55,078 bases of DNA from Prevotella sp. (GTDB lineage: Bacteria; Bacteroidota; Bacteroidia; Bacteroidales; Bacteroidaceae): NCBI GenBank assembly GCA_017474925.1, contig JAFVGN010000006.1, positions 1 through 55,078 of the forward strand, in the 5' to 3' direction. Within the stretch, counting starts at the first letter, position 1. Every line of letters starts with the position of its first letter. Position numbers and translations under genes: made by a program. The notes under the pieces are model-generated. The model worked only from the letters and a program-made list of their open reading frames with translations, searched no databases and was not told the origin of the DNA. Below are positions 370 through 49,341 of the stretch, piece after piece.

Positions 370-374
370 TCTTC

Positions 375-557: not shown

Positions 558-638
558 TGAAGCATCCATCCGTCACTTACTATTCCCGTCGGCATTTCGA
601 CAAGCCTTTCCATTTTGAACTCTCACAGACGAATTAAG

Positions 639-1760
639 ATGTATAAATCCCGCAAACTCCCCAACACCAGAATCGATGTGGCTGATGCCCTGCGAGGCAT
701 CGCTGTGGCAGGTATCATCCTGTATCACTCCGTAGAGCACTTCAACATCTTCACGCAAGAGCCGATAGTCCATCCGCTGGCGAGTGACCAGACGGTAGCG
801 GATGTACTGGCATGGCTGCTCTCAGGCAAGATGTACGGCATCTTCGCGATGCTCTTCGGACTGAGTTTCTTCATCATGAACGACAACCAGCAGCAGAAGG
901 GCAAGAACTTCTCCTTACGTTTTGCCTGGCGCATGTGCCTGTTGTTCGGCTTCGGCATTGTCAACGTGGCTTTCTACGATGGCGACATCCTGATGCTCTA
1001 TGCCTGCTACGGTCTGCTACTCATCCCGATTAGTTATTTGCCGTCGAAGTGGGTGTGGTGTATTATTGCCTTATTAGCTATACAGCCTGTGGAACTCTTC
1101 TGCCTGCTGACAGGCTATGAGATTGACCATACCAGATTCTACGAGATATCTGGCATCATCAATGCCGCTCATGAACATGGTACGTTCTGGGAGAACACAC
1201 TCACCAACCTGCAATATGGTTTTGAAGTGAATCTGCGCTTCAACATCTTCAGCGGACGACTGACACAGTTACTCTGCCTCTTCATCCTCGGCATGCAGTT
1301 GGGGCGTCAGAGGCTCTTTTACAATGAGGGGAGACATCTGAAGATCTGGCATAACATTCTCTTTTGCTCTGCTATCGTAGTCCTAGCGTTGAGTTTCGTG
1401 GATTTAGGTGAACTTGACTCCTGGTTGAAGCCTATTTACAGCCTTATCATACTGTTGATGATCGTCTCGGCAATAGTTTCTGCCTGGTACGCTTTCGAGG
1501 GTGTTCGGCGTGTGCTTCATCACCTCTGTATCTTCGGTCGCATGAGTCTTACCAACTATCTGCTCCAGTCCGTCATCGGCTGTGCCATCTTCTGCGGCTA
1601 TGGCCTTGCCTGTTATCGCTATTTGGGTGTTACCTATGCCGTCATTGTGGGATGTGGAATGGTCGTTTGTCAATATCTCTTTGCCCGTTATTGGTTCAGC
1701 AACCATCCTCGCGGACCGTTAGAGGGCCTTTGGAGAAAACTGACATGGATTAATTTTTAA
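639..1760 (+). CDS. DUF418 (YeiB-type) integral membrane protein
   Basis: Encodes 373 residues. The N-terminus has the family's RIDVADALRGIAVAGIIL start. Eight or more hydrophobic segments follow. The C-terminal third is the DUF418 domain proper, with GRMSLTNYLLQS and the closing YWFSNHPRGPLEGLWRKLTW. Members are inner-membrane proteins of uncertain function, possibly acyl-transfer or transport. I choose ATG 639; an in-frame TTG lies at 615. The gene sits between two pieces of the same IS left end (to 557, and from 1774) and its stop is followed directly by half of a dispersed palindrome. That arrangement suggests it arrived, or was re-sited, during IS-related rearrangement. Confidence 0.85.
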   Translation: MYKSRKLPNTRIDVADALRGIAVAGIILYHSVEHFNIFTQEPIVHPLASDQTVADVLAWLLSGKMYGIFAMLFGLSFFIMNDNQQQKGKNFSLRFAWRMCLLFGFGIVNVAFYDGDILMLYACYGLLLIPISYLPSKWVWCIIALLAIQPVELFCLLTGYEIDHTRFYEISGIINAAHEHGTFWENTLTNLQYGFEVNLRFNIFSGRLTQLLCLFILGMQLGRQRLFYNEGRHLKIWHNILFCSAIVVLALSFVDLGELDSWLKPIYSLIILLMIVSAIVSAWYAFEGVRRVLHHLCIFGRMSLTNYLLQSVIGCAIFCGYGLACYRYLGVTYAVIVGCGMVVCQYLFARYWFSNHPRGPLEGLWRKLTWINF

Positions 1761-1773
1761 CCTCTGTGTCCCC

Positions 1774-1811
1774 TATAAAGAAAGTTAAATTAAAGTGCTG
1801 CGGAATTTAGG
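1774..1811 (-). mobile_element. IS1380-family terminal end (relic 2)
   Basis: Read on the minus strand this is CCTAAATTCCGCAGCACTTT followed by ATTTAACTTTCTTTATA. It matches the outer end of the longer relic at 4753-5000 with few differences. It is an IS left end reduced to its terminal repeat and about 20 further bases. The outer end overlaps the last codons of the MATE gene and supplies its TAA. The inner edge abuts CCTCTGTGTCC, half of the palindrome found at 3563, 4722 and 7087. Confidence 0.65.
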
Positions 1812-3519
1812 TCCATACTATAGTCGTTACATTCATGGAGAACATGTAGCGGTAGGTGGCAGAGCGGGCGCCTACTGATGCGGCATCCATACCATTGTGT
1901 ACCGGGTCGTAGGGACGGCCGCAGTCTTTGATGGTCATCTGGACCCCGTCGTCTAACTCGCAGAGCGTGATGTCAAGATATTTAAGATGACGACTTCTAC
2001 GCTCCCGTGCATTGTTTAAGAGCGCCAGGATAGTAGAGTACATCTTAGAACTCAATTCGTCGCTCATCTCGCAGATGACGGCAAATAACTTGATCATCTT
2101 CTTCATCTCTTCAAGATTATGTTGCTCGTAATCTATCGAACATTCGAACTTAATACACGAAGGCATCTTATCGACCAACGAGAACTTGGTATAGAACGGG
2201 TACTTGAGGTGCTTCCTGTAGCCGTAGGCCAGGCTGGCCACAAGGATAGGCACACCACCCACAATCAATCCCAGCCACATGGCATCGGCACTGACCTTCG
2301 AAAGGCCAAGCATACTCAGATAGGCTATGATACCCATGGCGAATACCAGCACAATCTTGGCCGCTACGTGACCTGCCAGTTGCAGTACGACTGTGGCATA
2401 CACCGCTACCGCACAGAAGCAGAAGTAGTAGATGCCAAAGCAGGTGAATACCCTGCGGGCCAGGGCGAGGTCGATACCGTCGAGCCCAAAACACCACAGG
2501 AAGAACTGCGGCACAGCCACCATTAACAGCAGTAGCACACCGTAGAATCTTACCAGTATGCTGGCAGTAATATTCATGATGCGCCGCAGTCCGTAGATGT
2601 CGCCGGTAGCACGCATGTAGGTGACGAGCGAGACGCCAGCCATAGTGAGTCCCAAAACAACCGAGAACGTGGCCGACTGTATCTGCAGACATACATCAAA
2701 GAGCGTCAGCCCATCGTGTCCTGCCACTTTCAGTACCAATGCGTTGCCCAGCAGCATAAAGGCATTTACCACGATAAAAAATACGTTGAAGCCGAAGCCA
2801 TGCTTGAGGTTATCGCCGATGATGGCACCCAGGTCGCCCTGCGGCCGCACCAATCTGAACTGGCTCTTGCCCTTAAGGAAATGGGGCGATATGAGCGCGA
2901 GATTGATGAGACTCGAAATGACCGTACCCCATGCCGCACCGCTGATGCCCATGCCGAGAACACCGATGAAAAGGATGTCGAGCACCACATTGGCCGCACT
3001 GCCCGTAGCCACGGCTCGGGTGGCTAACTGCGGAACTCCCTCTTGCGTTGCAAAGTCGTTGAACGTGTTGTTTAGCGGCAGGATGAGCAGGTAAATGACG
3101 ATCACCTGTAGGTACTCGCGGGCATAGGCTGCGCTCTCGGGTCTGCCGGTCAGCCCCGAAGAGATACTGTCGAGGTTTAACCAGATGCCTAACGCCGCTA
3201 ATACCGCCACCATCACCGCCGAGGCCAAAGCCGCCGTGTATATACGGTTGGCCTTGTCGCGGTTGCCCTTGGCCAGCTGACCTGCTGCAAGCACTGCGCC
3301 GCCGCGTTCACATATCATCGTCAGCACGCTCACTGCATTGACTATAGGTAGCGCTACACTCACTGCGATGAAAGCATCGTTGCCCAACAGGTTGCTCGAG
3401 AAAAGCCCATCTACCAGCGTCGCTATGAGCGGTGCCAATGCTGTAAGCGTAACGCTCACCAGTGTTAGCCGGTAAGCCTTGTCGATAAGATAGCTGTTAC
3501 GAAAATTGCTAATATTCAT
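1807..3519 (-). CDS. MATE-family efflux transporter with C-terminal histidine-kinase-type ATPase-like domain
   Basis: Encodes 570 residues. Residues ~1-440 are a MATE-type transporter with about twelve membrane segments; such proteins export drugs or metabolites by Na+ or H+ antiport. The remaining ~125 residues are soluble and resemble an anti-sigma-factor-type HATPase: an N-box-like ILALLNNARE, then TIKDCGRPYDPV (DxGxPFDP motif), then a GARSATYRYMF segment at the G2 position. The fusion is unusual, and the Asp/Gly pattern is only partly canonical. I start at ATG 3519; an in-frame ATG at 3570 lies in a dispersed palindrome. The stop codon falls in an IS1380 end, so the original C-terminus may be longer. 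Confidence 0.8.
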   Translation of the reverse strand: MNISNFRNSYLIDKAYRLTLVSVTLTALAPLIATLVDGLFSSNLLGNDAFIAVSVALPIVNAVSVLTMICERGGAVLAAGQLAKGNRDKANRIYTAALASAVMVAVLAALGIWLNLDSISSGLTGRPESAAYAREYLQVIVIYLLILPLNNTFNDFATQEGVPQLATRAVATGSAANVVLDILFIGVLGMGISGAAWGTVISSLINLALISPHFLKGKSQFRLVRPQGDLGAIIGDNLKHGFGFNVFFIVVNAFMLLGNALVLKVAGHDGLTLFDVCLQIQSATFSVVLGLTMAGVSLVTYMRATGDIYGLRRIMNITASILVRFYGVLLLLMVAVPQFFLWCFGLDGIDLALARRVFTCFGIYYFCFCAVAVYATVVLQLAGHVAAKIVLVFAMGIIAYLSMLGLSKVSADAMWLGLIVGGVPILVASLAYGYRKHLKYPFYTKFSLVDKMPSCIKFECSIDYEQHNLEEMKKMIKLFAVICEMSDELSSKMYSTILALLNNARERRSRHLKYLDITLCELDDGVQMTIKDCGRPYDPVHNGMDAASVGARSATYRYMFSMNVTTIVWT

Positions 3520-7960: not shown

Positions 7961-8467
7961 ATGAAAAAAATCATGATGGCCGCAGTTGCCTTAATCTGCA
8001 TGACAATGGTAAGTGTTGCGTTGACCGCCTGTGGTAGTGACGATGACGACAAGGAAATGACCTTTGACTATTATGTTTCAGGCTCAATCACCAGTTCTTC
8101 TTATTCGATGAAGAAAGACGATGCCGATCCCTGGAACGCTGTCGTGAAACAGACTGATGAGAAAGTGAATGCCATCTTGCAAAAATACTCTAAAAGCTGG
8201 AATGTCAAAGCCACATCGTCCAACATGCAGCAAGTCGTTACGATCAACGATAATGAGGCAAAGCAACTGGTTGCCGAAATGAAGGTGGAACTCAACAAGG
8301 TCTTTGCTGACTTGGAGCCTCTGAAATCAGAGTATCCAAACGAATACATCTCCTACCTGGTTAGCATTAAGGCCATGAATAACGCCCCTGAAAACGGTAA
8401 TAAAGGGTGGAACGCCTTTATTAATGAAACAGTCAGCCTCCGCTTCGCAGAAAGTCGTCGTGATTGA
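7961..8467 (+). CDS. Small lipoprotein, unknown function, with altered C-terminus
   Basis: Encodes 168 residues. The signal peptide ends in a lipobox (ALTACG, Cys near 24) followed by an acidic stretch (GSDDDDKE), the usual outer-membrane lipoprotein context in Bacteroidetes. The mature part has predicted helices with no recognised domain. The last ~10 residues (SLRFAESRRD) overlap sequence that in another frame encodes a carboxypeptidase-regulatory-like domain, so a deletion probably fused this gene to its neighbour and replaced its true end. Confidence 0.6.
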   Translation: MKKIMMAAVALICMTMVSVALTACGSDDDDKEMTFDYYVSGSITSSSYSMKKDDADPWNAVVKQTDEKVNAILQKYSKSWNVKATSSNMQQVVTINDNEAKQLVAEMKVELNKVFADLEPLKSEYPNEYISYLVSIKAMNNAPENGNKGWNAFINETVSLRFAESRRD

Positions 8468-8842
8468 CACAGAGGGCAACGGCGTACCCTATGCCTCGGT
8501 GATGACGGCTGAGGCGGAGTTTGTCGGGGTGACCGACCTGGACGGTGTGCTGGCCGACGCCAAGGGCAACACGGACATCACCGTGACGCACGTGGCTTCG
8601 ACGAATTGAAGAAAGACAGGGAGACTGGTACCGAAGAGTATGTCCACTACAGCTATGGCATACAGGTGTTCACCATCGAACGTGCCTACGTGACGAAGAA
8701 CGAGCTGAAGCAGAAGAAGAAGGACAACAAGATGAAGATGAACTACCAAAGCATCCAGCAGTTTGAGCGGCAGAACAACATTCCTCCCCTTGCACCACCC
8801 ATTCAGAAGAAACTGGCTGAGCTCTGGAAAGTTAGTGAATGA
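8436..8842 (+). pseudogene. Remnant of a carboxypeptidase-regulatory-like (CarboxypepD_reg) protein
   Basis: From 8451 one frame encodes KVVVIDTEGNGVPYASVM, then GVTDLDGVLAD and ITVTHVA, the pattern of a CarboxypepD_reg-like surface-protein domain. After VTHVA the frame stops at 8609. Similarity-like coding continues in another frame (FDELKKDRETGTEEYVHY...) to a stop at 8842. The start is also missing, since the left edge merges into the lipoprotein gene. This is a frameshifted, 5'-truncated relic, and no full domain remains in one frame. Confidence 0.55.
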
Positions 8843-39222: not shown

Positions 39223-39256
39223 GTGAAAGGGTAGGGGACGAGCTCATTTTTATGTC

Positions 39257-39380
39257 ATGAAGATAATAGACGACAACTTAATGAACGGATTGGCCGGAAC
39301 TGAGCGTCCTGCAGGAGTGCAAGGCTGGCCCATTCGTAGAGCATGAAGTGGACGGGATTCTGGAAACAAATATCCTATGA
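39257..39380 (+). pseudogene. Collapsed WbuC-type cupin gene
   Basis: ATG at 39257 encodes MKIIDDNLMNGLAGTE, like the start of WbuC-family cupin proteins, and stops after 29 codons. Another frame (from about 39286) encodes WPELSVLQECKAGPFVEHEV then DGILETNIL, like that family's C-terminus, and ends in a TGA overlapping the next gene's ATG by four bases. Both ends survive, and the ~100-residue metal-binding core between them is gone with a frame change. Family assignment rests on short segments. Confidence 0.4.
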
Positions 39381-39868
39381 ACAAAGACGAGAAACGAGAA
39401 CTGAGGCGCAAGCGGCTGATGGACAACAAGGCCTATCAGACGATGAACGGCCTGACGCGCTACATGGATCGCTATTATCTCGATGCGCTCATTGGCATCA
39501 TTCCAGGCTGGGGTGATGCCATTGCATTGCTCAGCGTCGTACCGTTCGTCTATTTCTCGTCGAGAGTCATCAAGAGCATCCCTTTGACGTTGGCAGTATT
39601 GAATAATGCCCTTCGTGATGTGCTGATGGGCATGCTACCGTTCTTCGTTGGCGACGTTATTGATTTCTTCCATCGTGCCAACATCCAGAATATGCAGATG
39701 GTTCAAGGTTTCGTTGACGGCGACGAGACCATCATCAAACAGGTGAACCAACGAGCCTGGCAGTCAGCCATTGTCCTGATCGTCCTGCTGCTGCTCATAG
39801 CCTTCATGATATGGGCACTCGTCAGTTTCGGAAGCTACCTGTATTCATTGGTAGCATCCATCTTCTGA
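39377..39868 (+). CDS. DUF4112 membrane protein
   Basis: Encodes 163 residues. The DUF4112 signature covers ~20-110: MNGLTRYMDRYYLDALIGII, then PGWGDAIALLSVVPFVYFSS and MGMLPFFVGDVIDFFHRANI. Three hydrophobic segments follow the basic N-terminus, the last near the C-terminus (~135-160). Function is unknown. Its start overlaps the stop of the collapsed cupin gene, so it was once the second gene of a coupled pair. Confidence 0.88.
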   Translation: MNKDEKRELRRKRLMDNKAYQTMNGLTRYMDRYYLDALIGIIPGWGDAIALLSVVPFVYFSSRVIKSIPLTLAVLNNALRDVLMGMLPFFVGDVIDFFHRANIQNMQMVQGFVDGDETIIKQVNQRAWQSAIVLIVLLLLIAFMIWALVSFGSYLYSLVASIF

Positions 39869-39975
39869 ACCGTCACAGCCAAATTTCTGAGATAAACGGC
39901 ATCGAAATATGACGGGGATGGTATGGCAAATGGCAGAAATGTGAGGAATGGTTTGGTTTTTCACCCGTTTCTTTG

Positions 39976-39983
39976 TACCTTTG
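39976..39983 (+). promoter_or_regulatory. Promoter -7 motif TACCTTTG for the LytTR gene
   Basis: TACCTTTG lies 39 bases before the ATG at 40022. Downstream is a leader containing CTCGGCCAATCATGC, a 15-base string also present in the leader at 46462-46476. Confidence 0.6.
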
Positions 39984-40021
39984 CGGCTTGAAGTTGCGAA
40001 ACTGCTCACGCTCGGCCAATC

Positions 40022-40987
40022 ATGCGAGCTCGTTGGCACTCACTTAATCGCAGCTTTGCCGACCGTATGAAACAGGGACGTAAAGAAACGATAACGACGA
40101 GGATCGTCAGTACCACTTTTATGGTGGTGGCGCTGGCTGTGTTCAAGCCTTTTGGGCTGGATGCGTGGCATTGGCAGGCCTACGTGCATCTGGTAGCTTT
40201 GGGTGTGATTGGTTTCTCGATCTGCATGATAACGGACATCATCCTGAAGTATATTGTCAAGATGCCGAGGTCGTTCAAGAAAGGTGTCGAATACATCATC
40301 CGCCGCAATTTATGGTTCCAGTTTATCAATACACCGCTCGTGGCACTGGGCATTTGTCTCTATCGCCACTTCGTGCTGAGCGACCGTGTAGAAAGTAATC
40401 AGTTTTCTGTCATCAATTTCCTTGAAACCCTTGTCATCATCGCCTTCTGCTCCTTCGCCATCGGGCTCTACTGGCGCTTCAAGTTCCGCAGCAAGTATCT
40501 GGCGATGGAACTGGAAGAGACAAGACTGTTGAATGAGGAGTTGAAGAAGGCACAGGATGAATCAAGGGGACAAGTTCATGATTCGGACAATGTCCTGAAT
40601 CACGCGACCTGTCCCCCTGATTCTTCTCGCCGCCCGCAGGAGCTGACACTCACTGGTACGACCAACGAATCGGTGACGCTCCAGATTTTCCACCTATTAT
40701 TTATTGAGGCCGTTGGCAACTACGTCAAGGTCAGCCATCTGCGCGACGGACAGGTGCATACCGACATGCTTCGTGCCACCATGAAACAGATGGAGGAAAC
40801 GTTGCAGGGCTATCCGATGATTGTCCGCTGCCATCGTGCCTTTCTGGTCAATCTAGGCCAGGTAGAACAGATTGTCTCACATTCTGGCTCCACCCAGCTG
40901 CTCATCAAGCACTGCCACGATTCACTTCCCGTCTCGCGCAGCAACATGTCGCAGGTTCGCGCAGCAATCAAACGAGGGGAAAGCTAG
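40022..40987 (+). CDS. Membrane-bound LytTR-family transcriptional regulator
   Basis: Encodes 321 residues. Four membrane helices (~30-165) are followed by a short coiled segment (AMELEETRLLNEELKKAQDE) and a linker carrying a palindromic insertion (~182-198). The C-terminal LytTR DNA-binding domain is from ~215 (IFHLLFIEAVGNYVKVSHL, MIVRCHRAFLVNLGQVEQIV). It lacks a receiver domain, so the signal is probably sensed through the membrane part. The first ATG (40022) lies inside a repeated leader motif, and the in-frame ATG at 40067 is a plausible alternative start. Confidence 0.85.
   Translation: MRARWHSLNRSFADRMKQGRKETITTRIVSTTFMVVALAVFKPFGLDAWHWQAYVHLVALGVIGFSICMITDIILKYIVKMPRSFKKGVEYIIRRNLWFQFINTPLVALGICLYRHFVLSDRVESNQFSVINFLETLVIIAFCSFAIGLYWRFKFRSKYLAMELEETRLLNEELKKAQDESRGQVHDSDNVLNHATCPPDSSRRPQELTLTGTTNESVTLQIFHLLFIEAVGNYVKVSHLRDGQVHTDMLRATMKQMEETLQGYPMIVRCHRAFLVNLGQVEQIVSHSGSTQLLIKHCHDSLPVSRSNMSQVRAAIKRGES
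40566..40616. repeat. In-frame palindromic insertion in the LytTR gene linker
   Basis: A 51-base hairpin (17 codons): GGGGACAAGTTCATGATTC, a 12-base centre that is itself partly palindromic (GGACAATGTCC), then GAATCACGCGACCTGTCCCC. It is read through as SRGQVHDSDNVLNHATCPP-like linker. The length is a multiple of three, and it lies exactly between coiled segment and DNA-binding domain. Confidence 0.7.
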
Positions 40988-41068
40988 AATCTCCACCTGC
41001 GGAACGGCAGTAGTCATCTAATAGATATACCTACTTCTGATTAACCTGCTTATGCAGGACTTTGCAGG

Positions 41069-41107
41069 TGCGCAATGCTTAAAACACTCGTTTTTAGGTA
41101 TTGCGCA
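41069..41107 (+). terminator. Hairpin terminator after the LytTR gene
   Basis: TGCGCAAT / ATTGCGCA inverted repeat with an inner AAAAC / GTTTT arm, 80 bases after the LytTR stop and followed by TCTTATTTATTT. Confidence 0.6.
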
Positions 41108-41123
41108 TCTTATTTATTTGCCG

Positions 41124-41213
41124 TACCTTTGCACCGTGATTAGAAACCACGGTGCGAGGACAGGCAGCACCTCAGCATAGAGCGAGCTCTCTGCATTCGG
41201 TTTGCACTGTCCT
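41124..41213 (+). promoter_or_regulatory. Promoter and structured leader of the DUF2023-flavodoxin operon
   Basis: TACCTTTG at 41124-41131 is followed by two stems: CACCGTG/CACGGTG (41132-41154) and AGGACAG/CTGTCCT (41157-41213), the latter enclosing smaller stems such as GCAG/CTGC and AGAG/CTCT. The second part (TGCATTCGGTTTGCACTGTC) looks like a Bacteroidales promoter-type repeat and may offer a second start site. No known riboswitch class is recognised. Confidence 0.5.
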
Positions 41214-41240
41214 TGTCAGTCGAAATCAAAAGTAATAAAA

Positions 41241-41714
41241 ATGAGTAACCGACCCAAAGTCGCTTGCAAGGCAAGAACGACGACAGCGATTCCCACAGAA
41301 ATGAAGGCTGCGAGTAAGCGAGAGCAGAGCCAAGCTTGCTTGAGCCATGCCGAGCGTGAACAGGCAGGAGCAACGCTCAAGGTACTGATGAACCATATCT
41401 ACGAACTGCATAAAGGTGTGCGCCACATGGTGCTGTTCACCTGCAACAAGAAGTACAGCGAACTGGCCATACAGCGACTGGAGAGTCAGGGTATTCCTTA
41501 CTTGTTGCAACCAGCTGGACAACAGAACCTAAACGTGTATTTCGGGCGGCGCGAATGCCTGGAGGCCATCCGGCTTATCGTTACCCGTCCGTTGAACCTG
41601 CTCACGCCAGAAGAGGACTTCATCCTCGGAGCTATGCTTGGCTACGACATCTGTGCACAGTGCGAACGGTATTGTAAGCGTAAATGCGACAGTAAGTGCA
41701 TCAACAAGAATTAA
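41241..41714 (+). CDS. DUF2023 protein
   Basis: Encodes 157 residues. The DUF2023 domain covers ~52-155 (VLMNHIYELHKGVRHMVLFT, LESQGIPYLLQPAGQQNLNV and FFGRREC-like YFGRRECLEAI). It ends in a Cys-rich tail (YDICAQCERYCKRKCDSKC) that could bind metal. The N-terminal ~45 residues are basic, low-complexity, and include a repeat-encoded EQSQACLSHAER segment. It lies 22 bases before the flavodoxin gene, an association also seen in other Bacteroidales, suggesting a redox-linked role. I choose ATG 41241; a TTG at 41202 falls in the structured leader. Confidence 0.85.
   Translation: MSNRPKVACKARTTTAIPTEMKAASKREQSQACLSHAEREQAGATLKVLMNHIYELHKGVRHMVLFTCNKKYSELAIQRLESQGIPYLLQPAGQQNLNVYFGRRECLEAIRLIVTRPLNLLTPEEDFILGAMLGYDICAQCERYCKRKCDSKCINKN
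41318..41356. repeat. EQSQ-type palindromic repeat inside the DUF2023 gene
   Basis: GCGAGAGCAGAGCCAAGCTT then GCTTGAGCCATGCCGAGCG, with the hairpin core CAAGC/GCTTG. It is read in frame as REQSQACLSHAER. A relative lies at 48802-48840 (opposite orientation), inside another gene's C-terminus. Confidence 0.65.
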
Positions 41715-41736
41715 CCACATAAATCACATATAATAT

Positions 41737-42231
41737 ATGAACTCAACAATTGTAATCTATGGTTCCTCGACAGGAACCTGCGAGGCCATCGCTGAGAAGA
41801 TTGCCTCGAAACTGGACTGCGAGGCCCTGAACGTACAGGACCTGACAGCCGATGTTGTGGCTGCAAACCAGAATCTGATTCTCGGCACCTCGACTTGGGG
41901 CGCAGGCGAATTGCAGGACGATTGGTACGATGGTCTGAAGACGCTCCAAAGTGCAGATCTCAATGGTAAGACCATTGCCATCTTCGGTTGTGGTGACTGC
42001 TCTTCGTACAGTGACACCTTTGTAGGCGGCATAGGAGAACTCTACAACGGCATCAAGGACAGCGGTGCCAAGTTCATCGGTTCTGTTGAGACCGATGGCT
42101 ACACTTTCGACGACTCTGAGGCCGTCATTGATGGTAAGTTTATCGGTCTGCCCCTCGACGATATCAACGAGGATGACAAGACCGACACTCGCATCGAGGC
42201 CTGGATAGCCGCCATCTCTCCCAACTTGTAA
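41737..42231 (+). CDS. fldA: Flavodoxin
   Basis: Encodes 164 residues, a long-chain flavodoxin carrying FMN and acting as a soluble low-potential electron carrier in place of ferredoxin. The FMN phosphate loop is YGSSTGTCEAIAEKI near the start. GTSTWGAGELQDDWYDGL is the first isoalloxazine-stacking loop, and FGCGDCSSYSDTFVGGIGEL is the second. It is the second gene after DUF2023 and is followed by a strong terminator. Iron regulation is plausible but not visible. Confidence 0.96.
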   Translation: MNSTIVIYGSSTGTCEAIAEKIASKLDCEALNVQDLTADVVAANQNLILGTSTWGAGELQDDWYDGLKTLQSADLNGKTIAIFGCGDCSSYSDTFVGGIGELYNGIKDSGAKFIGSVETDGYTFDDSEAVIDGKFIGLPLDDINEDDKTDTRIEAWIAAISPNL

Positions 42232-42272
42232 TCACAGGTATAAAATTCATAAAGTATTTGTTTAGTTAAGTG

Positions 42273-42308
42273 AGGTGGTTAGTCGGTGACGATCAACCAC
42301 CTTTTTTC
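42273..42308 (+). terminator. Terminator of the DUF2023-flavodoxin operon
   Basis: Perfect AGGTGGTT / AACCACCT stem with a 14-base loop, followed by TTTTTT, 41 bases after the flavodoxin stop. Confidence 0.9.
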
Positions 42309-42419
42309 CTGAATCTCTCTGAATAAATAAGATACCCAAAAAATCGCAGACTGAGCAACAGAAATTACAGATTAGATAATAAATTCAAAAGCAAAGATGG
42401 TTTTTGGGGGAAAAATAAG

Positions 42420-42427
42420 TAATTTTG
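42420..42427 (+). promoter_or_regulatory. Promoter -7 motif TAATTTTG for the panE remnant
   Basis: TAATTTTG lies 30 bases before the ATG at 42458; the promoter survives although the gene is broken. Confidence 0.5.
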
Positions 42428-42457
42428 CAATCGCATTACAAAATTAAGTTATCAAAA

Positions 42458-42980
42458 ATGAGATACGGAATCATTGGTACTGGCGATATTGGCGGTTATT
42501 ATGGAGCCAAATTGGCTCGTGCAGGACAGGAAGTACATTTCCTGCTGCACAGCGACTATGAGTATGTTAAACAGCACGGTCTGCAGGTAAATTCCTGTAA
42601 CGGATCGTTTCATCTGGCTAATGTAAACGTCTATCTGCATACGGAGGACATGCCGCCGTGCGACGTGGTGCTCGTCTGTCTGAAGTCTGTCAACAACGGC
42701 ATGCTGCAGACGTTGCTACCACCATTACTCCATGCCAAGACTTTGGTGGTGCTCATTCAGAACGGCATTGGGGTCGAGGAGGATGTGCAGAAGATGTTCC
42801 CCGACATACAACTGGCTGCGGGTCTGGCCATTATCTGTTCTGCCAAGACTGAGCCCGGTCTTGTCGACCACCAGTGTTATGGCAGCATCAATTTGGCTAA
42901 CTACTCTTGCAGGGACGAAGTGCTGATGCAGGCCAGAGATGCTGGAGGCAGAGCTGCAGTTCCTGACAGAAAATCGATAG
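42458..42980 (+). pseudogene. panE: Collapsed ketopantoate reductase gene
   Basis: The first ~155 codons encode a good PanE N-terminus: MRYGIIGTGDIGGYYGAKLA (NADPH-binding), CDVVLVCLKSVNN, VLIQNGIGVEEDVQKMF and AIICSAKTEPGLVDH. Normal PanE-type proteins run to about 310 residues. At about 42925 the frame departs, and a second frame (42939-42980) encodes MLEAELQFLTENR, a typical end for this family. Both ends survive, while ~130 residues including the catalytic Lys/Glu domain are missing. The first frame runs on to 43021 through unrelated sequence. Confidence 0.75.
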
Positions 42981-43005
42981 TTCTCTATTACATCTCTTGT
43001 TTGAA

Positions 43006-43572
43006 ATGGCTATACAAGTGACATACAGGAGAACCAGGAGGCTGTCAATGCGAATTGTGAAGAACGGTGATGTACATGTGTCGGCACCTATTGGTATGCC
43101 AAAGAAAGAGGTAGAGCGGTTTATTGAAGAACACCGCGAGTGGATAGCCGAGGCACGTAAGAAAACCTACGAGAGTCAGAAACGTAGGGCTGACTTTTAT
43201 AACAAGCTGCCGTTAAAGACGAGAGAACAGGCTGACGATGCCCTGCGGCGATTGAAAGCCTTGATAGAGCCGATGGTGGATCAGCACTCCGAGGAGATGG
43301 GCGTGAAACCGTCCGTAGTATATTACAAGGCGATGATTTCACGTTGGGGTGTCTGCAATGTCAAGGACAAGTCCATCTGCTTCTCTGCCTATCTGCTGCT
43401 GTTGCCGGAATGGTGTGTCGAGCACGTGGTGGTTCATGAATTGTGTCATCTGTTGGAACCAAGCCACAATGCCCGTTTCCATGCACTGATGGACAAGTTC
43501 TTCCCCCGTTGGAAGGAAGCCAGAAAAATGACAAGACAGATATGTAAGATGGAGGAGGACGAAGATGAGTAG
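43006..43572 (+). CDS. YgjP-like (DUF45) zinc metallopeptidase-domain protein
   Basis: Encodes 188 residues. The C-terminal half has the YgjP/SprT-like pattern: SRWGVCNVKDKSICFSAYLL, LPEWCVEHVVVHELCHLLEP (zinc motif HELCH) and NARFHALMDKFFPRWKEARK. The N-terminus resembles the domain's usual start (RRTRRLSMRIVKNGDVHVSA). Such proteins are cytosolic, and their substrates are unknown. I take ATG 43006. It begins 25 bases after the collapsed panE gene. Confidence 0.88.
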   Translation: MAIQVTYRRTRRLSMRIVKNGDVHVSAPIGMPKKEVERFIEEHREWIAEARKKTYESQKRRADFYNKLPLKTREQADDALRRLKALIEPMVDQHSEEMGVKPSVVYYKAMISRWGVCNVKDKSICFSAYLLLLPEWCVEHVVVHELCHLLEPSHNARFHALMDKFFPRWKEARKMTRQICKMEEDEDE

Positions 43573-43598
43573 TATTGCCCTTCTTCCACGAAGTCAGA

Positions 43599-43881
43599 TC
43601 AGCCTTCTGCTCCTTCGCCACCGCCGGGCAGACCGCCGCCGCTATTGGTGTTGTCGCCGCCCTCGGGGTCGTCAGTGGAGTCCGTACCCGTCAGGCTCTT
43701 GATCATCGCCTTGGTCTTCGAGGTGAATGCCAGTCGGGAAGGCTGTGTTGTGGTGGTGCATGTGGTTGGCGAGTTCACGCAAGCCGATGGTTCCCTTGTA
43801 CTTTACGCGAGCGTAGTACTTGCCCAACGTACCCTGAATGGAGTCGTTGGTGTTCTTAGTCAAATTCAATTCTAATGCCAT
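43599..43881 (-). pseudogene. Collapsed HU-like DNA-binding protein gene
   Basis: ATG at 43881 opens MALELNLTKNTNDSIQGTLG, then KYYARVKYKGTIGLRELA and HNTAFPTG, the N-terminus of Bacteroidales HU-like proteins. After ~50 residues that frame passes into unrelated residues and stops at 43672. A second frame encodes AFTSKTKAMIKSLTGTDST, then a Gly-rich tail ending GGGEGAEG at TGA 43599-43601, as in the C-terminus of the same family. The central DNA-binding part (~60 residues) is lost with a frame change. Confidence 0.7.
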
Positions 43882-43922
43882 AATTTTTTCTGTTTTGTTT
43901 AAATTGTTAATACTGTTGTTAC

Positions 43923-43974
43923 TTTCGGAGTAATCGTTTTTTCTTTCGGAGTAACTAGAATTTCCTTCGGAGTA
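43923..43974 (-). promoter_or_regulatory. Three 21-base-spaced direct repeats upstream of the HU-like gene
   Basis: TTTCGGAGTA at 43923-43932 and 43944-43953 and CTTCGGAGTA at 43965-43974 recur with exactly 21-base spacing, i.e. two helical turns. On the gene's strand the unit reads TACTCCGAAA. They lie between the -7 motif (43998) and the start codon (43881), so they could be operators or leader RNA elements. Confidence 0.6.
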
Positions 43975-43997
43975 TCGATTTTATCCGTTTCCGAATG

Positions 43998-44005
43998 CAA
44001 AGATA
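43998..44005 (-). promoter_or_regulatory. Promoter -7 motif TATCTTTG for the HU-like gene
   Basis: On the minus strand TATCTTTG fits the consensus, with a leader of ~115 nt containing three phased repeats. The rest of the 330-base gap up to 44211 contains a short smalltalk-like tail (GATLM then TAA near 44068), low-complexity sequence and the hairpin at 44152; no gene is supported there. Confidence 0.5.
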
Positions 44006-44151
44006 GTAAATATCAAAGAGATGAACAGAAAAAATGAAGTTGAGATAAGTTCACGAATGGAGCGACTTTGATGTAAGATGTAAGATGGATGAAGGCTGAG
44101 GGAAGATGGTAGAGGTACTATTAGCTATGTTTTTGTGCATTTTAAGCGCTG

Positions 44152-44182
44152 TATTGCATAAAAAAGTGTTTTTTATGCAATA
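44152..44182 (-). terminator. Perfect A/T-armed hairpin after the SDR gene
   Basis: TATTGCATAAAAAA / TTTTTTATGCAATA is a perfect 14-base inverted repeat with a three-base loop, 30 bases beyond the SDR stop on the minus strand. The A/U arms would give a U-run on either strand. Confidence 0.65.
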
Positions 44183-44211
44183 GGCTTGCGGAATTGAAAA
44201 TAACCCTATCT

Positions 44212-45024
44212 TCATAAGGCATGTCCACCGGATACTTTAATGACTTGACCTGTTAGCATTCTCGCCTGCTCACTCGCCAAAAACAGAATCGTTTCTGCAA
44301 TATCTTCCGGCTGAATCAGTTTTCCCATAGGAATGATTGGAAGAACAGACTGTTCCAAATCGGTGTCAATCCATCCCGTCTGAGTCGGACCTGGCGCAAC
44401 ACAATTGACGGTAATGCCGTACTTTGCTACCTCCAAGGCTATGCTGCGAGTAAGTGCTTCAAGTGTAGCCTTACTTGCTCCGTAGGCTATTTGCCCGGCA
44501 AAAACCTGTGATGCATCGGTTGAGATATTGATGATGCGTCCATAATCACCGCGATGAGTAATCATCTCCCTTGTCATCAAGATGCTTCCGCGGACATTAA
44601 CCGCAAAAGTGTCATCAATCACATTCTGCGTAATTTTCTCTATGGTGTCAATACCATCCATGTCACCATCAGCCGCATTGTTGACCAGAATATCGACCCT
44701 TCCGTATCGTTCAAGGACTTTCGAATAGATTTCCTTAACGGCAGCTTCATTGGAAATGTCGCTTTCCAGAATCATATAGTCGGCATTCATTTCCTTCAGC
44801 CTGCTCTCTACACGATCAGCATTCCCTGAGTTTGCTTCGAAATACCTGTCCGTACCATTCTTGTCTGTCTTTGATTGATCAAACGGCCTGTGGACTCTCT
44901 TGTATATCAAGACCACCTTTGCCCCTTCACGAGCGAAGGCGAATGCCGTCGTTGCCCCAATCCCCTGTGGGTTATTTGCTCCTGTAATCAGAGCTACTTT
45001 ATTCTTAAGTCCGTAGTTAACCAT
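44212..45024 (-). CDS. Short-chain dehydrogenase/reductase (SDR) family oxidoreductase
   Basis: Encodes 270 residues, a classical SDR. Cofactor motif ALITGANNPQGIGATTAFAF (TGxxxGIG form with a short insertion); VDILVNNAADGD (NNAG-type motif); catalytic Ser in RIINISTDAS and YGASK (YxxxK). GITVNCVAPGPTQTGWIDTD and LTGQVIKVSGGHAL close the fold. It resembles 3-oxoacyl-ACP-reductase-type enzymes, but the substrate is unknown. It is more A/T-rich than its neighbours, so it may be acquired. It shares a strand with the upstream cysteine desulfidase-like gene, 70 bases away. Confidence 0.92.
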   Translation of the reverse strand: MVNYGLKNKVALITGANNPQGIGATTAFAFAREGAKVVLIYKRVHRPFDQSKTDKNGTDRYFEANSGNADRVESRLKEMNADYMILESDISNEAAVKEIYSKVLERYGRVDILVNNAADGDMDGIDTIEKITQNVIDDTFAVNVRGSILMTREMITHRGDYGRIINISTDASQVFAGQIAYGASKATLEALTRSIALEVAKYGITVNCVAPGPTQTGWIDTDLEQSVLPIIPMGKLIQPEDIAETILFLASEQARMLTGQVIKVSGGHAL

Positions 45025-45094
45025 ATATTTATCTTTTTATTTGTTTTATCGGATTATTATTCTCCTATGATTGTTACTGCCAACTCGTTTCGAC

Positions 45095-46366
45095 TTATTT
45101 CAGTTTTTTCGATGTCATGATGCTCAATACCATATCATCGGTTTTACACATGGCCTCGGCACCAATACTCGTAAGATTATGAATGCTTTTGTCAACATCG
45201 TCGTCCACAATTCCTTCATCCTGCGACACGCATTTGCCCTCCATAGCGAGCAGTGCTGATAGCAAGGCAGTGCTAACGCCACTTGTAATCTTCAGCGAAC
45301 ACGATGGTTTGGCTCCGTCGCATATCATACCCGTCAGGTTGGCAATCATATTCTTAACAGCATAGCAGATACGCTCGTAGTCACCTCCCATCAGGTAGGT
45401 AATGCCACAACTGGAGCCAATCGATGCTACCACACAACCACAGAGTGCCGACAACTTACCAAGACTCTGCTTGATATAGATAGCCGTCAGATGACTAAGC
45501 ATCAGGGCTCGCAGCAGTTCTTCCTCCGTGTTCTCGTTTTCTTTGGCATACACGCATACGGGGTTCGTGGCACAAATGCCCTGATTGCCCGATCCTGAGT
45601 TTGACATCACGGGAATCATGGCTCCGCCCATACGGGCATCGCAAGCCGAAGCCGTTCGCGAGATAATGTGAGAATAGATGCTATTGCCGAAGATTCCCTT
45701 AGCCAGCGGACGGTCGATGGTCTTGCCAAGGTTATGACCGTGATTGCCCTTAAGCGCCTCGCGGGCTGCATTCATGTTGTAGGTTCGCGCCTCCTCTATA
45801 AAACGTATCTCCTCCAAAGGTGCAGTTGCAGCAAAGTCGTACACAAGTCGCATGTTGAGTGCTATCTCGTCATCTCCATCGCTCGCAGCTGTCCGAGAGT
45901 AGCTGGCATCGCCAGAAACAAAATGGGTATGACTGCCAGCGATGATAGCCCTTTCCTCGCGGTTACCTGCCGATGCAATAATTTCAATGTACAGTTTGTC
46001 GCACTCGCCCTCCTTTAACTGGATATCAATTCTATTCTCCGAAATATATTGTTTGCCCTCTTCTAGCGCCTCGGGAGTAAGATCCTTCAGTACCTCCAAC
46101 TGGTATTCGCTCTTGCCGATGAGCGCTCCCAGGGCAATAGCGATGGGAAGCCCTATCATACCTGTGCCTGGAATACCAACACCCATGGCGTTCTTTAAGA
46201 TATTGGCACTCAGCAGGGCCACAATCTTTTCTGGGCGATAGCCTAACTGCTCTTTAGCCTTTGCCGTACATAGTGCCACTGCCATCGGCTCGGTACAGCC
46301 GATTGCAGGCACTACTTCTTTATGTACTAGTGCTATAATCTGTTCGCGTATCTCCTTATCTATCAT
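45095..46366 (-). CDS. L-serine/L-cysteine deaminating enzyme of the UPF0597 (CyuA/YhaM) family
   Basis: Encodes 423 residues. The family includes Fe-S-dependent L-cysteine desulfidases and serine dehydratase alpha-like proteins that release pyruvate, ammonia and (from Cys) sulfide. Motifs: PAIGCTEPMAVALCTAKAKE (conserved Cys), MGVGIPGTGMIGLPIAIALG, IIAGSHTHFVSG, MSNSGSGNQGICATNPV, LCGCVVASIGSSCGITYLMG and LTGMICDGAKPSCSLKITSG, giving the cysteines expected for a cluster. Cysteine is the more likely substrate by family resemblance. It has its own promoter, divergent from the metal-domain remnant. Confidence 0.9.
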   Translation of the reverse strand: MIDKEIREQIIALVHKEVVPAIGCTEPMAVALCTAKAKEQLGYRPEKIVALLSANILKNAMGVGIPGTGMIGLPIAIALGALIGKSEYQLEVLKDLTPEALEEGKQYISENRIDIQLKEGECDKLYIEIIASAGNREERAIIAGSHTHFVSGDASYSRTAASDGDDEIALNMRLVYDFAATAPLEEIRFIEEARTYNMNAAREALKGNHGHNLGKTIDRPLAKGIFGNSIYSHIISRTASACDARMGGAMIPVMSNSGSGNQGICATNPVCVYAKENENTEEELLRALMLSHLTAIYIKQSLGKLSALCGCVVASIGSSCGITYLMGGDYERICYAVKNMIANLTGMICDGAKPSCSLKITSGVSTALLSALLAMEGKCVSQDEGIVDDDVDKSIHNLTSIGAEAMCKTDDMVLSIMTSKKLK

Positions 46367-46389
46367 ATTTATCTTCTTATTTTTATTTG

Positions 46390-46397
46390 CAAAGATA
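46390..46397 (-). promoter_or_regulatory. Promoter -7 motif TATCTTTG for the cysteine desulfidase-like gene
   Basis: TATCTTTG on the minus strand lies 24 bases before the ATG at 46366, divergent from a plus-strand TACCTTTG 22 bases away. Confidence 0.6.
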
Positions 46398-46418
46398 CGA
46401 AAAATGAAGAATTTTTGT

Positions 46419-46426
46419 TACCTTTG
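46419..46426 (+). promoter_or_regulatory. Promoter -7 motif TACCTTTG for the HMA-domain remnant
   Basis: TACCTTTG is followed at 46462-46476 by CTCGGCCAATCATGC, the same 15-base leader string found before the LytTR gene at 40011-40025. Confidence 0.55.
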
Positions 46427-46474
46427 CACCAAATATTAACATAAGTTGAATTTTGTCGCAACTCGGCCAATCAT

Positions 46475-46708
46475 GCAGACAAAAAGACGAGTCACTTCGA
46501 TGCCCACAAAACCCACGCCTATCGTCCTGACGTGAAGACCACCACCATCAAGGTGAGCCGTCACGACTCTCACAAGAAGATTGTGACCAAGGTTGAGAAT
46601 ATGAAGGGCGTGATGGATACAAACTGGAACCCCCGCACTCGTGAGTTGACAGTCCGCTACGATGCCAATAAGACTTCAGCCCACAATATCAAGCACTTCA
46701 TGGCGTAA
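46475..46708 (+). pseudogene. 5'-truncated gene for a heavy-metal-associated (HMA)-like domain with His in place of Cys
   Basis: From 46475 the frame encodes ADKKTSHFDAHKTHAYRPDV, then TTTIKVSRHDSHKKIVTKVE, NMKGVMDTNWNPRTREL and TVRYDANKTSAHNIKHFM. The pattern of IKV...KKIVTKVENMKGV...TVRYDANKTS matches an HMA fold, but the metal motif CxxC is HxxH (HDSH). No ATG precedes the domain in this frame, and the region where a signal peptide should lie is replaced by a repeated leader motif. Only an internal GTG (about 46532) could start it. I read it as a gene that lost its 5' end; a terminator still follows. Confidence 0.55.
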
Positions 46709-46731
46709 ACCATTCCATATAATTTCAAAAG

Positions 46732-46765
46732 AAGCCCCGGCTTGCATTTCTGCAGGTCGGGGCTT
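46732..46765 (+). terminator. Terminator hairpin after the HMA remnant
   Basis: AAGCCCCG / CGGGGCTT stem with an 18-base loop, followed by TCT, 24 bases past the TAA at 46706. It supports the preceding stretch having been a gene. Confidence 0.75.
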
Positions 46766-46916
46766 TCTCGCGATATCCGTCTGCCTTGTTCCGTTCCTTG
46801 GGCATAACTTATGTAAACTCAATGATGGCACTCACCTTAGTCCCTATATAGAGTTTCAACTTTCCCTCGCTATTGCAGGTGCTCGTCGTTACCTTGTATG
46901 TTAAGCTGTACATGTC

Positions 46917-47480
46917 CTATTTCAATTGCTTTCCGTCAGAGAATGCCTTGCCTACGGTTTTGCCAAGCTGGATGTAGGTGTGGTGAACGGGATCGAAAGT
47001 AATCAGTTCCATCTTTTCCACATCGGGCTTGCCATCTTCGGCCAGATACTTCTCGTCACAAAGGATGTTTACGATTTCTGCTACGAGATAGTAACCTGTC
47101 TCTGATTCGTCAATCTTCTGTTTCACGCGACATTCCAGCGTCATCGGGAACTCCTTGAATATTGGGGCATTCACATTGGGAGCCTTCTCAATTGTCCAGC
47201 CAGTCTTTTCCATTTTATCAGGAGTGTTCCTGCCGCTGACAATGCCAACATAATCAGAGGCTACCATCGTCTCAGCGGTTGCAAAAGCCACTGTGAATTC
47301 AGGATTCACGGCTAGATTGTTCGTTGTCTGATGAGATCCGAGTGAGATGACGATTTCGTTCATATCCCACTGACCGCCCCAGGCAGCGTTCATGGCGTTG
47401 GGCTTACCTTCTTTGTCATAAGTGCCGATAATCAGCACGGGTTGTGGCAACAGCCACGCAGTTGATTTGAAACTCTTCAT
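46917..47480 (-). CDS. Flavin reductase family protein (FMN-binding)
   Basis: Encodes 187 residues of the flavin-reductase-like split-barrel fold. Motifs: QPVLIIGTYDKEGKPNAMNA (family start), AAWGGQWDMNEIVISLG, EFTVAFATAETMVASDYVGI, APIFKEFPMTLECRVKQKI. Members bind FMN and reduce flavin or other acceptors with NAD(P)H. I choose ATG 47480, which gives the family's normal N-terminus. A Vat-type remnant lies 30 bases upstream on the same strand. Confidence 0.9.
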   Translation of the reverse strand: MKSFKSTAWLLPQPVLIIGTYDKEGKPNAMNAAWGGQWDMNEIVISLGSHQTTNNLAVNPEFTVAFATAETMVASDYVGIVSGRNTPDKMEKTGWTIEKAPNVNAPIFKEFPMTLECRVKQKIDESETGYYLVAEIVNILCDEKYLAEDGKPDVEKMELITFDPVHHTYIQLGKTVGKAFSDGKQLK

Positions 47481-47509
47481 ATTACTTGTGTTATTTGTAA
47501 CTAGAATAA

Positions 47510-47761
47510 TCATAGTCTTGCTTTTATTTCCATCTTTACCTTTTCCAAGTCGCCACATGATAAAATCGGCATGAGGCTTTCTATAACCTCGATGCTTTTG
47601 TCCCACCACTTGAACTGATGCAACAACTCTATCAGTTCGTCATAATAGGTGTAATCGCCGATGATAATACGCGGATTCTTCACCACATTCTTAATATAAC
47701 AGAGGCTCGGAATTTTGGGATTCGGAAAAGCCTCATTTGGATTGGGTCTTTGATTTGCCAT
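47510..47761 (-). pseudogene. In-frame collapsed Vat/CatB-type xenobiotic acetyltransferase
   Basis: Encodes 83 residues where the family has about 210. Residues 1-41 (NPNEAFPNPKIPSLCYIKNV, IIIGDYTYYD) match the start of streptogramin/chloramphenicol hexapeptide acetyltransferases. Residues ~42-83 (FKWWDKSIEVIESLMPIL, GDLEKVKMEIKAR) match their end. The whole left-handed beta-helix with the catalytic His is missing, and the join is in frame. A stable acetyltransferase is not expected. I choose ATG 47761. Confidence 0.75.
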
Positions 47762-47859
47762 CGCTAATTCTCCTAAATAATGTTGCAAATTTAGTCATTT
47801 AAGATGGAATATGAATAATAATGCGTAAATTTGTGCCAAGTTTTGAGAAATATTAGGAT

Positions 47860-48486
47860 ATGTATGGGATGATTATAAAGAAAACCATATTTGTAGTTTT
47901 GGCAATGCTATTTGCAGTTGTACTATCAGCACAAGACATACAAGGTTTTGTGACTAAACAGATGCAGACCTATCCGAAGTCGCGTCTGCTCGACATTTAT
48001 AAGTCATGTTTTCAGGACTACATGGGAGCGGAGCATTTGGTATCAGACAGAGAGCGTGTGAAGGCCTATCTTGACGAGGAGTTACAAACGACCAGTTTTG
48101 ATGACCTGATGCCCTGGTATTATGAGCCATGTGGTGTCAATGGCCAGTATGTCCGTGTCAGTATTAGAGCGATTAAAGAGAATTTGATAACGGAAGATGT
48201 GCTACTTGATGCTTTTATCCGTAGTGCAAACTCTGACATGAGACCAACAGTAGAATCATGGCGCGACAGATGGCACAAGATTGTTGGTACGATTGACCAG
48301 ATGGGACTCAATCTACCAAGCTACCAGCAAGACCGTACATTTATCGACAGTATCCTCTCCGTCGGTAAATATGCTATCAGTCATTCTCCCGAATATCGCG
48401 AGGCATATCGCCCACACTATCGAATCGTAGAGAAGAGCATTTTCGAGAATGAAATAAAGCCTTTAATATTCACAAAAACAAAGTAA
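47860..48486 (+). CDS. Secreted protein of unknown function
   Basis: Encodes 208 residues. The signal peptide ends near VVLSAQD. The mature part contains YPKSRLLDIYKSCFQDYMGA, EHLVSDRERVKAYLDEEL, WYYEPCGVNGQYVRVSIRAI and YREAYRPHYRIVEKSIF. I recognise this as a type common in Bacteroides and Prevotella but know no function or domain name. It is likely periplasmic. A second ATG at 47869 is possible. The next small gene starts 5 bases after its stop. Confidence 0.75.
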   Translation: MYGMIIKKTIFVVLAMLFAVVLSAQDIQGFVTKQMQTYPKSRLLDIYKSCFQDYMGAEHLVSDRERVKAYLDEELQTTSFDDLMPWYYEPCGVNGQYVRVSIRAIKENLITEDVLLDAFIRSANSDMRPTVESWRDRWHKIVGTIDQMGLNLPSYQQDRTFIDSILSVGKYAISHSPEYREAYRPHYRIVEKSIFENEIKPLIFTKTK

Positions 48487-48491
48487 TTCCT

Positions 48492-48638
48492 ATGGCTTAT
48501 ATGAATAAATACCAGTCAGATGACTATCGGCGTGATGAGCTGATACGTATTATCGAACATTCCGTGGAAAAACTGACTTTGGCCGAGTTGGAAGCCCTGT
48601 ACTACGACATGTCTACCAAGTCATATATTAACGATTGA
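48492..48638 (+). CDS. 48-residue conserved-looking small protein
   Basis: ATG at 48492 starts five bases after the secreted-protein gene. The product (MAYMNKYQSDDYRRDELIRI, IEHSVEKLTLAELEALYYDM, STKSYIND) is charged, helical and cytosolic, with balanced codon use. I know no function. It overlaps the convergent GNAT remnant by 11 bases. Confidence 0.5.
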   Translation: MAYMNKYQSDDYRRDELIRIIEHSVEKLTLAELEALYYDMSTKSYIND

Positions 48639-48756
48639 CTACCTTTTGGTAAGCTAATCGTTCGTTGCCAGACTGCCGCATAATCTTCTTCGCAGCATCC
48701 ATGACCAGCATAATCTCAGCCATGTCCGTCTGCCTTGCTTCCCTAATAATCCTCAT
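48628..48756 (-). pseudogene. N-terminal fragment of a GNAT acetyltransferase
   Basis: ATG at 48756 encodes MRIIREARQTDMAEIMLVMD, then AAKKIMRQSGN, the typical start of a GNAT protein in this phylum (usually continuing with a QW.GYP segment). After QSGN similarity stops, and the frame ends 13 codons later. About 120 residues including the acetyl-CoA site are absent. Confidence 0.6.
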
Positions 48757-48798
48757 TCCATTCTGCCATATTTCATTTGACTATCGTCGAATTCCTCC

Positions 48799-49341
48799 TC
48801 ACTCGGCAGAGCTCAAACGAGTTTGGCTCTGCTCTCGCTCGTTCGTCATTTCTTCACCCTGTTTATCATACTGTTTACGCTTGCCTACGGGAGGCTCTAT
48901 CTGGGTAATCTTAACCACTGCTGTACGTTCAAGACTACGGGCAATAGCATCGTCGAAAGCATCCATATGATGAGGGAGAAAACGCTGGCTGATGGCTCTT
49001 AATGCCTCAATCTTCTCCGCATGGTCTGTCACAATCTCTGCCTTACCTACGGCAGTTGCCGATTTGTACTGCAGCGTAAAGCTCCCATCTTTTGGGCCAA
49101 TTGTAGGCGTACATTTTGTAACAGCCGAGAGGAATACCGTCGGACAATGCGCTATGCAGTCCAACTTGTCACCCTCCAAGGCACAATGGAAATAGAAGGT
49201 TTTATCGTCTGTGCGTGCCAATGACAGGGGTAATCCGTATGGACTCCCATCAGGTCGCGTCATGCTGACTGTTACGTATGGAGCCTTATCCAACACCTCC
49301 AATGCGAAGGCGGCATTCATCTCTCTGCTTGCCTTTCTCAT
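48799..49341 (-). CDS. Pyridoxamine 5'-phosphate oxidase-like (Nim-type) FMN-binding protein
   Basis: Encodes 180 residues. The split-barrel fold is indicated by APYVTVSMTRPDGSPYGLPL, KTFYFHCALEGDKLDCIAHC, PTVFLSAVTKCTPTIGP and FTLQYKSATAVGKAEIVTD. Relatives include nitroimidazole reductases (Nim) and putative FMN oxidases, so a resistance role is possible but not shown. The last ~15 residues (NEREQSQTRLSSAE) are encoded by a palindromic repeat that also supplies the end of the gene, so the original C-terminus has probably been replaced. Confidence 0.85.
   Translation of the reverse strand: MRKASREMNAAFALEVLDKAPYVTVSMTRPDGSPYGLPLSLARTDDKTFYFHCALEGDKLDCIAHCPTVFLSAVTKCTPTIGPKDGSFTLQYKSATAVGKAEIVTDHAEKIEALRAISQRFLPHHMDAFDDAIARSLERTAVVKITQIEPPVGKRKQYDKQGEEMTNEREQSQTRLSSAE
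48802..48840. repeat. EQSQ-type palindromic repeat at the 3' end of the Nim-type gene
   Basis: The core GCAGAGCTCAAAC GA GTTTGGCTCTGC (48806-48832) is a near-perfect palindrome with one bulged base. On the minus strand it is read as EREQSQTRLSSAE. It is related to the repeat at 41318-41356. Confidence 0.7.

Follow-up and report, generated by a model that had tools for sequence, protein, structure and literature searches.

Hollowed genes in a Prevotella accessory island are probably products of ordinary erosion limited by neighboring genes

Here, we examine a cluster of gene remnants at 39–49 kb of a 55,078-nucleotide contig from Prevotella sp. (JAFVGN010000006.1 of assembly GCA_017474925.1; the whole contig is referred to as the window), in which six genes have lost internal sequence that intact relatives retain. 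The reading that best accounts for the data, to which we assign a probability of roughly 0.74, is neutral erosion of exchanged, dispensable genes, limited by the genes next to them and involving no special gene-cutting process. It draws on the internal losses themselves, the distances to neighboring genes, the accessory island in which the remnants lie and the independent losses found in relatives.

According to this model, dispensable accessory genes would pass between rumen Prevotella species by horizontal exchange and would be eroded by deletions of about 100–700 bp, probably through end joining that uses little homology, if any, with some deletions arising between short repeats. Most remnants have a neighboring gene that overlaps them or lies no more than about 60 bp away on one side or both. 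Deletions running far past the ends of a dying gene would damage that neighbor and be removed by purifying selection; because such deletions would be lost, a hollowed gene with its ends kept would often survive.

Internal losses in six genes of the island

Each remnant was aligned across its junction against chosen intact relatives (parents). The six remnants are:

39257–39370, plus strand: remnant of a fusion of a DUF6016 cupin with MsrA; 13 N-terminal codons, then a mid-gene stretch, with 281 bp lost at ~39296 and the MsrA part gone
42458–42971, plus strand: panE/ApbA remnant; 159 N-terminal and about 12 C-terminal codons, joined out of frame by loss of 386 bp at ~42934
43599–43881, minus strand: HU-HIG remnant; out-of-frame loss of 290 bp at ~43733
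46809–46913, minus strand: acyl-ACP thioesterase remnant; a complete in-frame 34-codon frame of 22 N-terminal and 12 C-terminal residues, with 597 bp lost at ~46847
47510–47761, minus strand: hexapeptide acetyltransferase remnant; an in-frame 83-codon frame, with 402 bp lost at ~47640 and 4–7 bp of junction homology
48628–48756, minus strand: GNAT-like remnant; an in-frame 42-codon frame, with 318 bp lost at ~48664

A preliminary description of this DNA had proposed that panE, the HU-like gene and a Vat/CatB acetyltransferase (the hexapeptide gene above) keep both ends and lack the middle. The alignments bore this out, as the missing middles are present in the intact relatives: the 386 bp loss in panE is seen against 4/4 parents, the 290 bp loss in the HU gene against 3/3, and the 402 bp loss in the hexapeptide gene against 4/5, the fifth (G226) being itself 79 bp shorter and giving 323 bp. 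The cupin gene had been placed in the same class, and its internal, out-of-frame 281 bp loss is seen against 5/5 parents aligned, but its C-terminal end is not kept. The remnant ends ~172 residues before the end of the best parent, L134 (a comparison given for 1 of 10 parents); L134 and a second relative, L137, have 303 and 302 residues, and Pfam identifies L134 as a DUF6016 cupin fused to MsrA (peptide methionine sulfoxide reductase), the half that is missing from the window. The gene described as a truncated GNAT has indeed lost sequence (318 bp compared with the closest of 4 parents, 369 bp compared with the three others), but in fact both of its ends are kept; its name comes from the preliminary description and was not confirmed by Pfam, which gave no family at E ≤ 0.01 on two intact relatives.

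The thioesterase is an additional hollowed gene that was absent from the earlier list. At position 46848, L147 and L244 carry 597 bp more than the window and L248 carries 669 bp more; the intact relatives have 233–257 residues, and Pfam recognizes both acyl-ACP thioesterase domains in the L249 copy. Genes of some relatives, such as the L248 thioesterase, are split by 72–75 bp in-frame inserts, perhaps of the dispersed-repeat kind. Conversely, the HMA-domain gene, which had also been called truncated, is not: relatives align across 46478–46766, and an internal gap looked for in that alignment was not seen. Outside the island, a related case had been noted at 8436–8842 (plus strand), which is what remains of a gene for a secreted protein, with a weak CarbopepD_reg match. 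Here, about 640 bp of the middle are lost compared with a 365-residue relative, as had been suggested, but the first ~33 residues, including the signal region, are also unmatched.

Domain searches show that the panE and hexapeptide remnants cannot make the full domain. The panE remnant keeps only the N-terminal ApbA domain, with both ApbA domains found in intact relatives, and no Pfam family is found on the hexapeptide remnant, with Hexapep found in its intact relatives. The window is contig C26 of a 2.28 Mb genome in 66 contigs with an estimated completeness of 63.65%. In a search of this genome, no ApbA match exceeded the cut-off besides that in the window, an absence that is weak evidence at 64% completeness. 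Thioesterase matches over the cut-off lie on contigs C6 and C60, contig C59 carries a 218-codon hexapeptide gene, and compared with the copy on contig C4 the HU-HIG remnant is also 129 bp shorter in the glycine-rich tail.

The remnant searches were run on genus samples, and the match counts cover partial matches as well as the genome of the window itself. The panE/YgjP stretch had a match in 75/150 genomes sampled and the cupin/DUF4112 stretch in 123/398; with 249 genomes sampled for each, matches numbered 40 for the HU gene, 46 for the hexapeptide gene, 115 for the HMA region, 121 for the GNAT-like stretch and 15 for the 8.4 kb stretch. In relatives holding both ends of a remnant, the ends are farther apart than in the window.

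The genes and shorter pieces that adjoin the remnants are:

39377–39868, plus strand: intact DUF4112 gene, beginning directly after the cupin remnant
43006–43572, plus strand: intact YgjP-like metallopeptidase gene, starting inside the frame of the panE remnant (frame end at 43021)
46478–46766, plus strand: HMA-domain region, continuous with relatives
46762–46808, minus strand: short remnant that corresponds to the beginning of a 60-codon frame, which we take to be Sel1-like, beside the thioesterase in L147
46917–47480, minus strand: flavin reductase-like gene, separated by 3 bp from what is left of the thioesterase (start codon picked by eye)
47860–48486, plus strand: open 208-codon gene
48492–48638, plus strand: small 48-codon gene, convergent with the GNAT-like remnant, whose end it overlaps by 11 bp

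Three side observations concern these surroundings. Contig C44 of the same genome (L145) retains, at about 2280–2370, nothing of a DUF4112 gene but its 3' end. The locus on contig C59 (L144) combines its hexapeptide gene with a copy of YgjP (81%) and a gene related to the small one, and resembles a second version of the island. A dispersed repeat occurs in opposite orientations at 41317–41354 and 48802–48839; its copies are 87% complementary and lie within coding frames.

Losses in relatives and probable exchange of the island genes

Genes of the same families have lost sequence independently in other genomes. In G031, the GNAT-like gene and the full hexapeptide stretch are open, and the gene between them, the 208-codon gene that is open in the window, has lost 416 bp of its middle; the cupin-MsrA gene of this genome carries its own in-frame 297 bp loss, unlike that of the window. 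The GNAT-like gene of G074 lacks 270–321 bp, depending on the parent, G189 and G373 have lost 137 and 115 bp of DUF4112, and YgjP losses amount to 270–273 bp in G006 and 165 bp in G083. Prevotella sp. P6B1 has the 3' part of a DUF4112 gene joined to other sequence. Since the P6B1 record is not labeled as a metagenome-assembled genome (MAG), such fragments extend beyond metagenome bins.

These losses also bear on whether the remnants are an assembly artefact, with the genes intact and the contig wrong. Such an error would be easier to envisage in a 66-contig bin of this completeness, the remnants look recent, and the window junctions find no counterpart extending 16 bp to both sides in 307 other loci that were fetched; the one exception is G031 at the cupin gene, which has a different deletion of its own. 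However, assemblers collapse on long shared words and the junctions share 0–3 bp, once 4–7 bp; other losses are found in separately assembled genomes, and in P6B1 in a record without a MAG label; and six coincidences within 10 kb would be needed. We regard an artefact as very improbable.

The 39–49 kb region is, judging from its sequence relationships, an accessory island. In 12/12 relatives compared, identity over the aligned parts of 39.2–49.3 kb (78.1–95.3%) is higher than over the core at 9–37 kb (72.1–76.0%), suggesting that island genes may have been exchanged more recently than the core. A protein search with the YgjP-like sequence returned 148 relatives; among the 80 best, nearly all titles name Prevotella, Xylanibacter or Prevotellaceae, and many indicate a ruminant origin. 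Plasmid and phage origins were considered and rejected: five plasmid records matched 39240–46800 with at most 8% of the query covered, and three phage records matched 41700–49340 with at most 3% covered, in both cases weakly and in scattered fashion.

Gene settings in these islands change sharply at start codons. Counting a setting as shared only where one alignment continues past the gene, the YgjP-like gene has, in 75 loci, 58 different settings upstream and 67 downstream. A recount demanded 150–1000 bp of room on the respective side; at the 1 kb requirement, 73 loci gave 55 settings upstream and 66 loci gave 59 downstream. The shared block begins within 5 bp of the YgjP-like start codon in 1755/2783 pairs. 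More broadly, for 300 reading frames with at least 3 matches, the beginning of the shared block is no more than 10 bp from the start in 62% of 4271 blocks, and for the 223 frames with at most 20 matches this holds for 46% of 1275. Some genes are gone almost exactly from start to stop. In L236 and L159, YgjP and an adjoining membrane-protein gene have exchanged places, and the joints lie close to start and stop codons.

One explanation would be that rumen Prevotella shuffle accessory genes as units bounded by start codons, through a rearrangement process without a precedent known to us, and that the hollowed genes are imprecise excisions. We consider this unlikely. Start-sharp blocks could also come from trimming of spacers by the same deletions that erode the genes. 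The start-codon-sharp change of setting in these islands merits a separate study.

Deletion placement, reading frame and junction sequence

The preliminary description had argued that both termini would be retained less often under random decay. We evaluated this on 207 non-redundant sequences (1.36 Mb, window included), a non-random sample that was mostly fetched for likeness to window genes. Losses of at least 100 bp entered the both-ends test (120 bp in another survey listing), and many 72–75 bp in-frame differences returned by the event finder were taken as dispersed-repeat insertions in the longer copy. Two-gene events and losses of at least 95% of a gene, for which gain and loss are indistinguishable, were dropped, as were repeated breakpoint pairs; in a few rows (L035 and L094; two of L115) the parent gene is the same, which makes them non-independent. 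Under the null model, a deletion of the same size is placed at random and may cut at most 45 bp into a neighbor, defined as a frame of at least 90 codons.

Among 48 partial single-gene losses of at least 100 bp, both breakpoints fall in one gene in 31, compared with 24.4 expected (P = 0.016). The excess stems from the window, whose seven rows (the cupin loss and two gaps in the HU gene among them) were chosen by the finding itself. The other 41 losses are the fairer test, because the window cases were picked for this very property. Of these, 24 keep both ends compared with 20.9 expected (P = 0.16), in agreement with chance plus spared neighbors, and the argument from the preserved termini is not sustained.

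The reading frame bears on whether the short in-frame products could be selected mini-genes, kept to maintain translation into neighbors or for a function of their own. Three of the six window remnants (thioesterase, GNAT-like and hexapeptide; 34, 42 and 83 codons) are open from start to stop, and 15/27 surveyed losses are in frame, which is above one third (P = 0.014). A precedent is offered by the Keio excisions in E. coli, which, according to an excerpt of PMC8547470, leave a 34-residue in-frame peptide intended to preserve translational coupling. However, the frame is lost in the panE, HU and cupin remnants, some in-frame survey cases may be natural length variants, and the window junctions do not recur in the fetched loci. 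Selected mini-genes are an unlikely explanation. The in-frame excess might hint at selection against polar effects, with natural length variants possibly inflating the count.

Microhomology or repeats at the junctions had been suggested as a point to check, and of the six window junctions one has homology longer than 3 bp. The hexapeptide junction has 4–7 bp of homology (a 7 bp repeat in 3/5 parents, 4 bp in 2/5), compared with 0–3 bp in the other five window cases. The ambiguity of the best split is 0–1 bp for the cupin (4/5 parents), HU (3/3) and thioesterase (3/3) junctions; for panE, an exact parental repeat of at least 3 bp is absent in 3/4 parents and measures 3 bp in the fourth; and the GNAT-like junction shares 3 bp with its closest parent. 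The expectation by chance is 0.0004 per junction for at least 7 bp, 0.016 for at least 4 bp and 0.05 for at least 3 bp; because homology of 7 bp or 4 bp is this rare, one of the six window junctions looks repeat-associated. The GNAT-like loss in G074 shows an apparent 13 bp overlap at its junction.

The preliminary description had raised a specific deletion process, which would excise gene bodies and rejoin their ends. All seven scored window losses are internal, one DUF4112 breakpoint is reused in related genomes, and the string GCCRG lies near 8/33 junctions compared with 1.7 expected, all as such a process might produce. Yet GCCRG was chosen from the window itself; outside the window it lies near 4/26 junctions compared with 1.3 expected, with two of the four on one breakpoint. 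An unbiased k-mer test of the 33 both-ends junctions found no common motif (corrected P = 0.76 for 4-mers and 0.51 for 5-mers), nor did the test of 5-mers outside the window (corrected P = 0.92), and a shared junction motif, which site-specific excision of the integron-cassette or recombinase type would call for, was rejected on this basis. A k-mer signal (P = 0.02) did emerge once one-end and two-gene losses were added (76 events), and its top strings resemble, in our reading, the surroundings of start codons. The deletions vary in size, frame and homology length, and breakpoints differ between genomes. On the evidence of the junctions and deletions, with neither a motif nor a constant homology length, a dedicated process seems quite unlikely.

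Several observations weigh against neutral erosion limited by neighbors. First, 7/7 scored window losses are internal to one gene compared with 3.5 expected (P = 0.006). In the parents of these rows, one neighbor is within 58 bp in 6/7 and the other is 41–348 bp away; as the far neighbor is often 100–350 bp off, packing alone does not force the both-ends outcome, and because packing is mostly tight on one side only, our confidence is slightly lowered. Second, the in-frame excess among surveyed losses exceeds what deletions indifferent to frame would give. Third, the DUF4112 breakpoint at 39753 is exactly common to G189 and G373, with differing left ends, and the break in P6B1 is only a few bases away. 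Fourth, the island identities rest on 275–3306 aligned bases per relative, at loci fetched for their likeness to the island, and are indicative. Finally, the panE remnant has 7 nonsynonymous and 11 synonymous private changes, compared with 0 and 7 in the intact window YgjP; it shows no stops, no gaps and no clear relaxation of constraint, leaving decay after the deletion unproven. The parts of the hexapeptide remnant combined have 1 nonsynonymous and 6 synonymous private changes. Relaxed selection as a clock was rejected, the changes being too few.

Relation to known systems

On the reading of neutral erosion, the island is a case of ordinary erosion of accessory genes, unusually well displayed. 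It offers a compact natural example, with intact relatives at hand, of how accessory genes die in bacteria, including the size and frame of the deletions and the role of neighbors. It also provides a caution, in that kept ends are common when deletions must spare neighbors, and a special enzyme is unnecessary to account for them. A literature search at the level of listings found no account of this in Prevotella.

Bacterial pseudogenes are shaped by a deletion bias, such that dispensable genes lose tens to hundreds of bases and their remnants stay recognizable for a while. The genes of the island resemble bacterial internal-deletion pseudogenes in losing pieces while dispensable and in leaving recognizable remnants. 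Unlike in the usual cases, six remnants lie in one 10 kb island, and parallel losses in the same families are found in other species of the genus.

In an excerpt of PMC9748784, deletions are reported to outnumber insertions in prokaryotes too, and border-induced selection is described, in which deletions into conserved borders are removed and the edges of a neutral stretch persist. The island is similar in that deletions past the near end of a remnant would hit a neighboring gene; it differs in that the model, as presented in that excerpt, was fitted to human introns, whereas the borders here are adjacent bacterial genes.

The Keio deletions, as the excerpt of PMC8547470 presents them, are likewise comparable in keeping the last codons, leaving a short in-frame peptide and sparing the neighbors, and the thioesterase remnant also has 34 residues. 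The Keio scars, however, were engineered, whereas in the window 3/6 cases are in frame.

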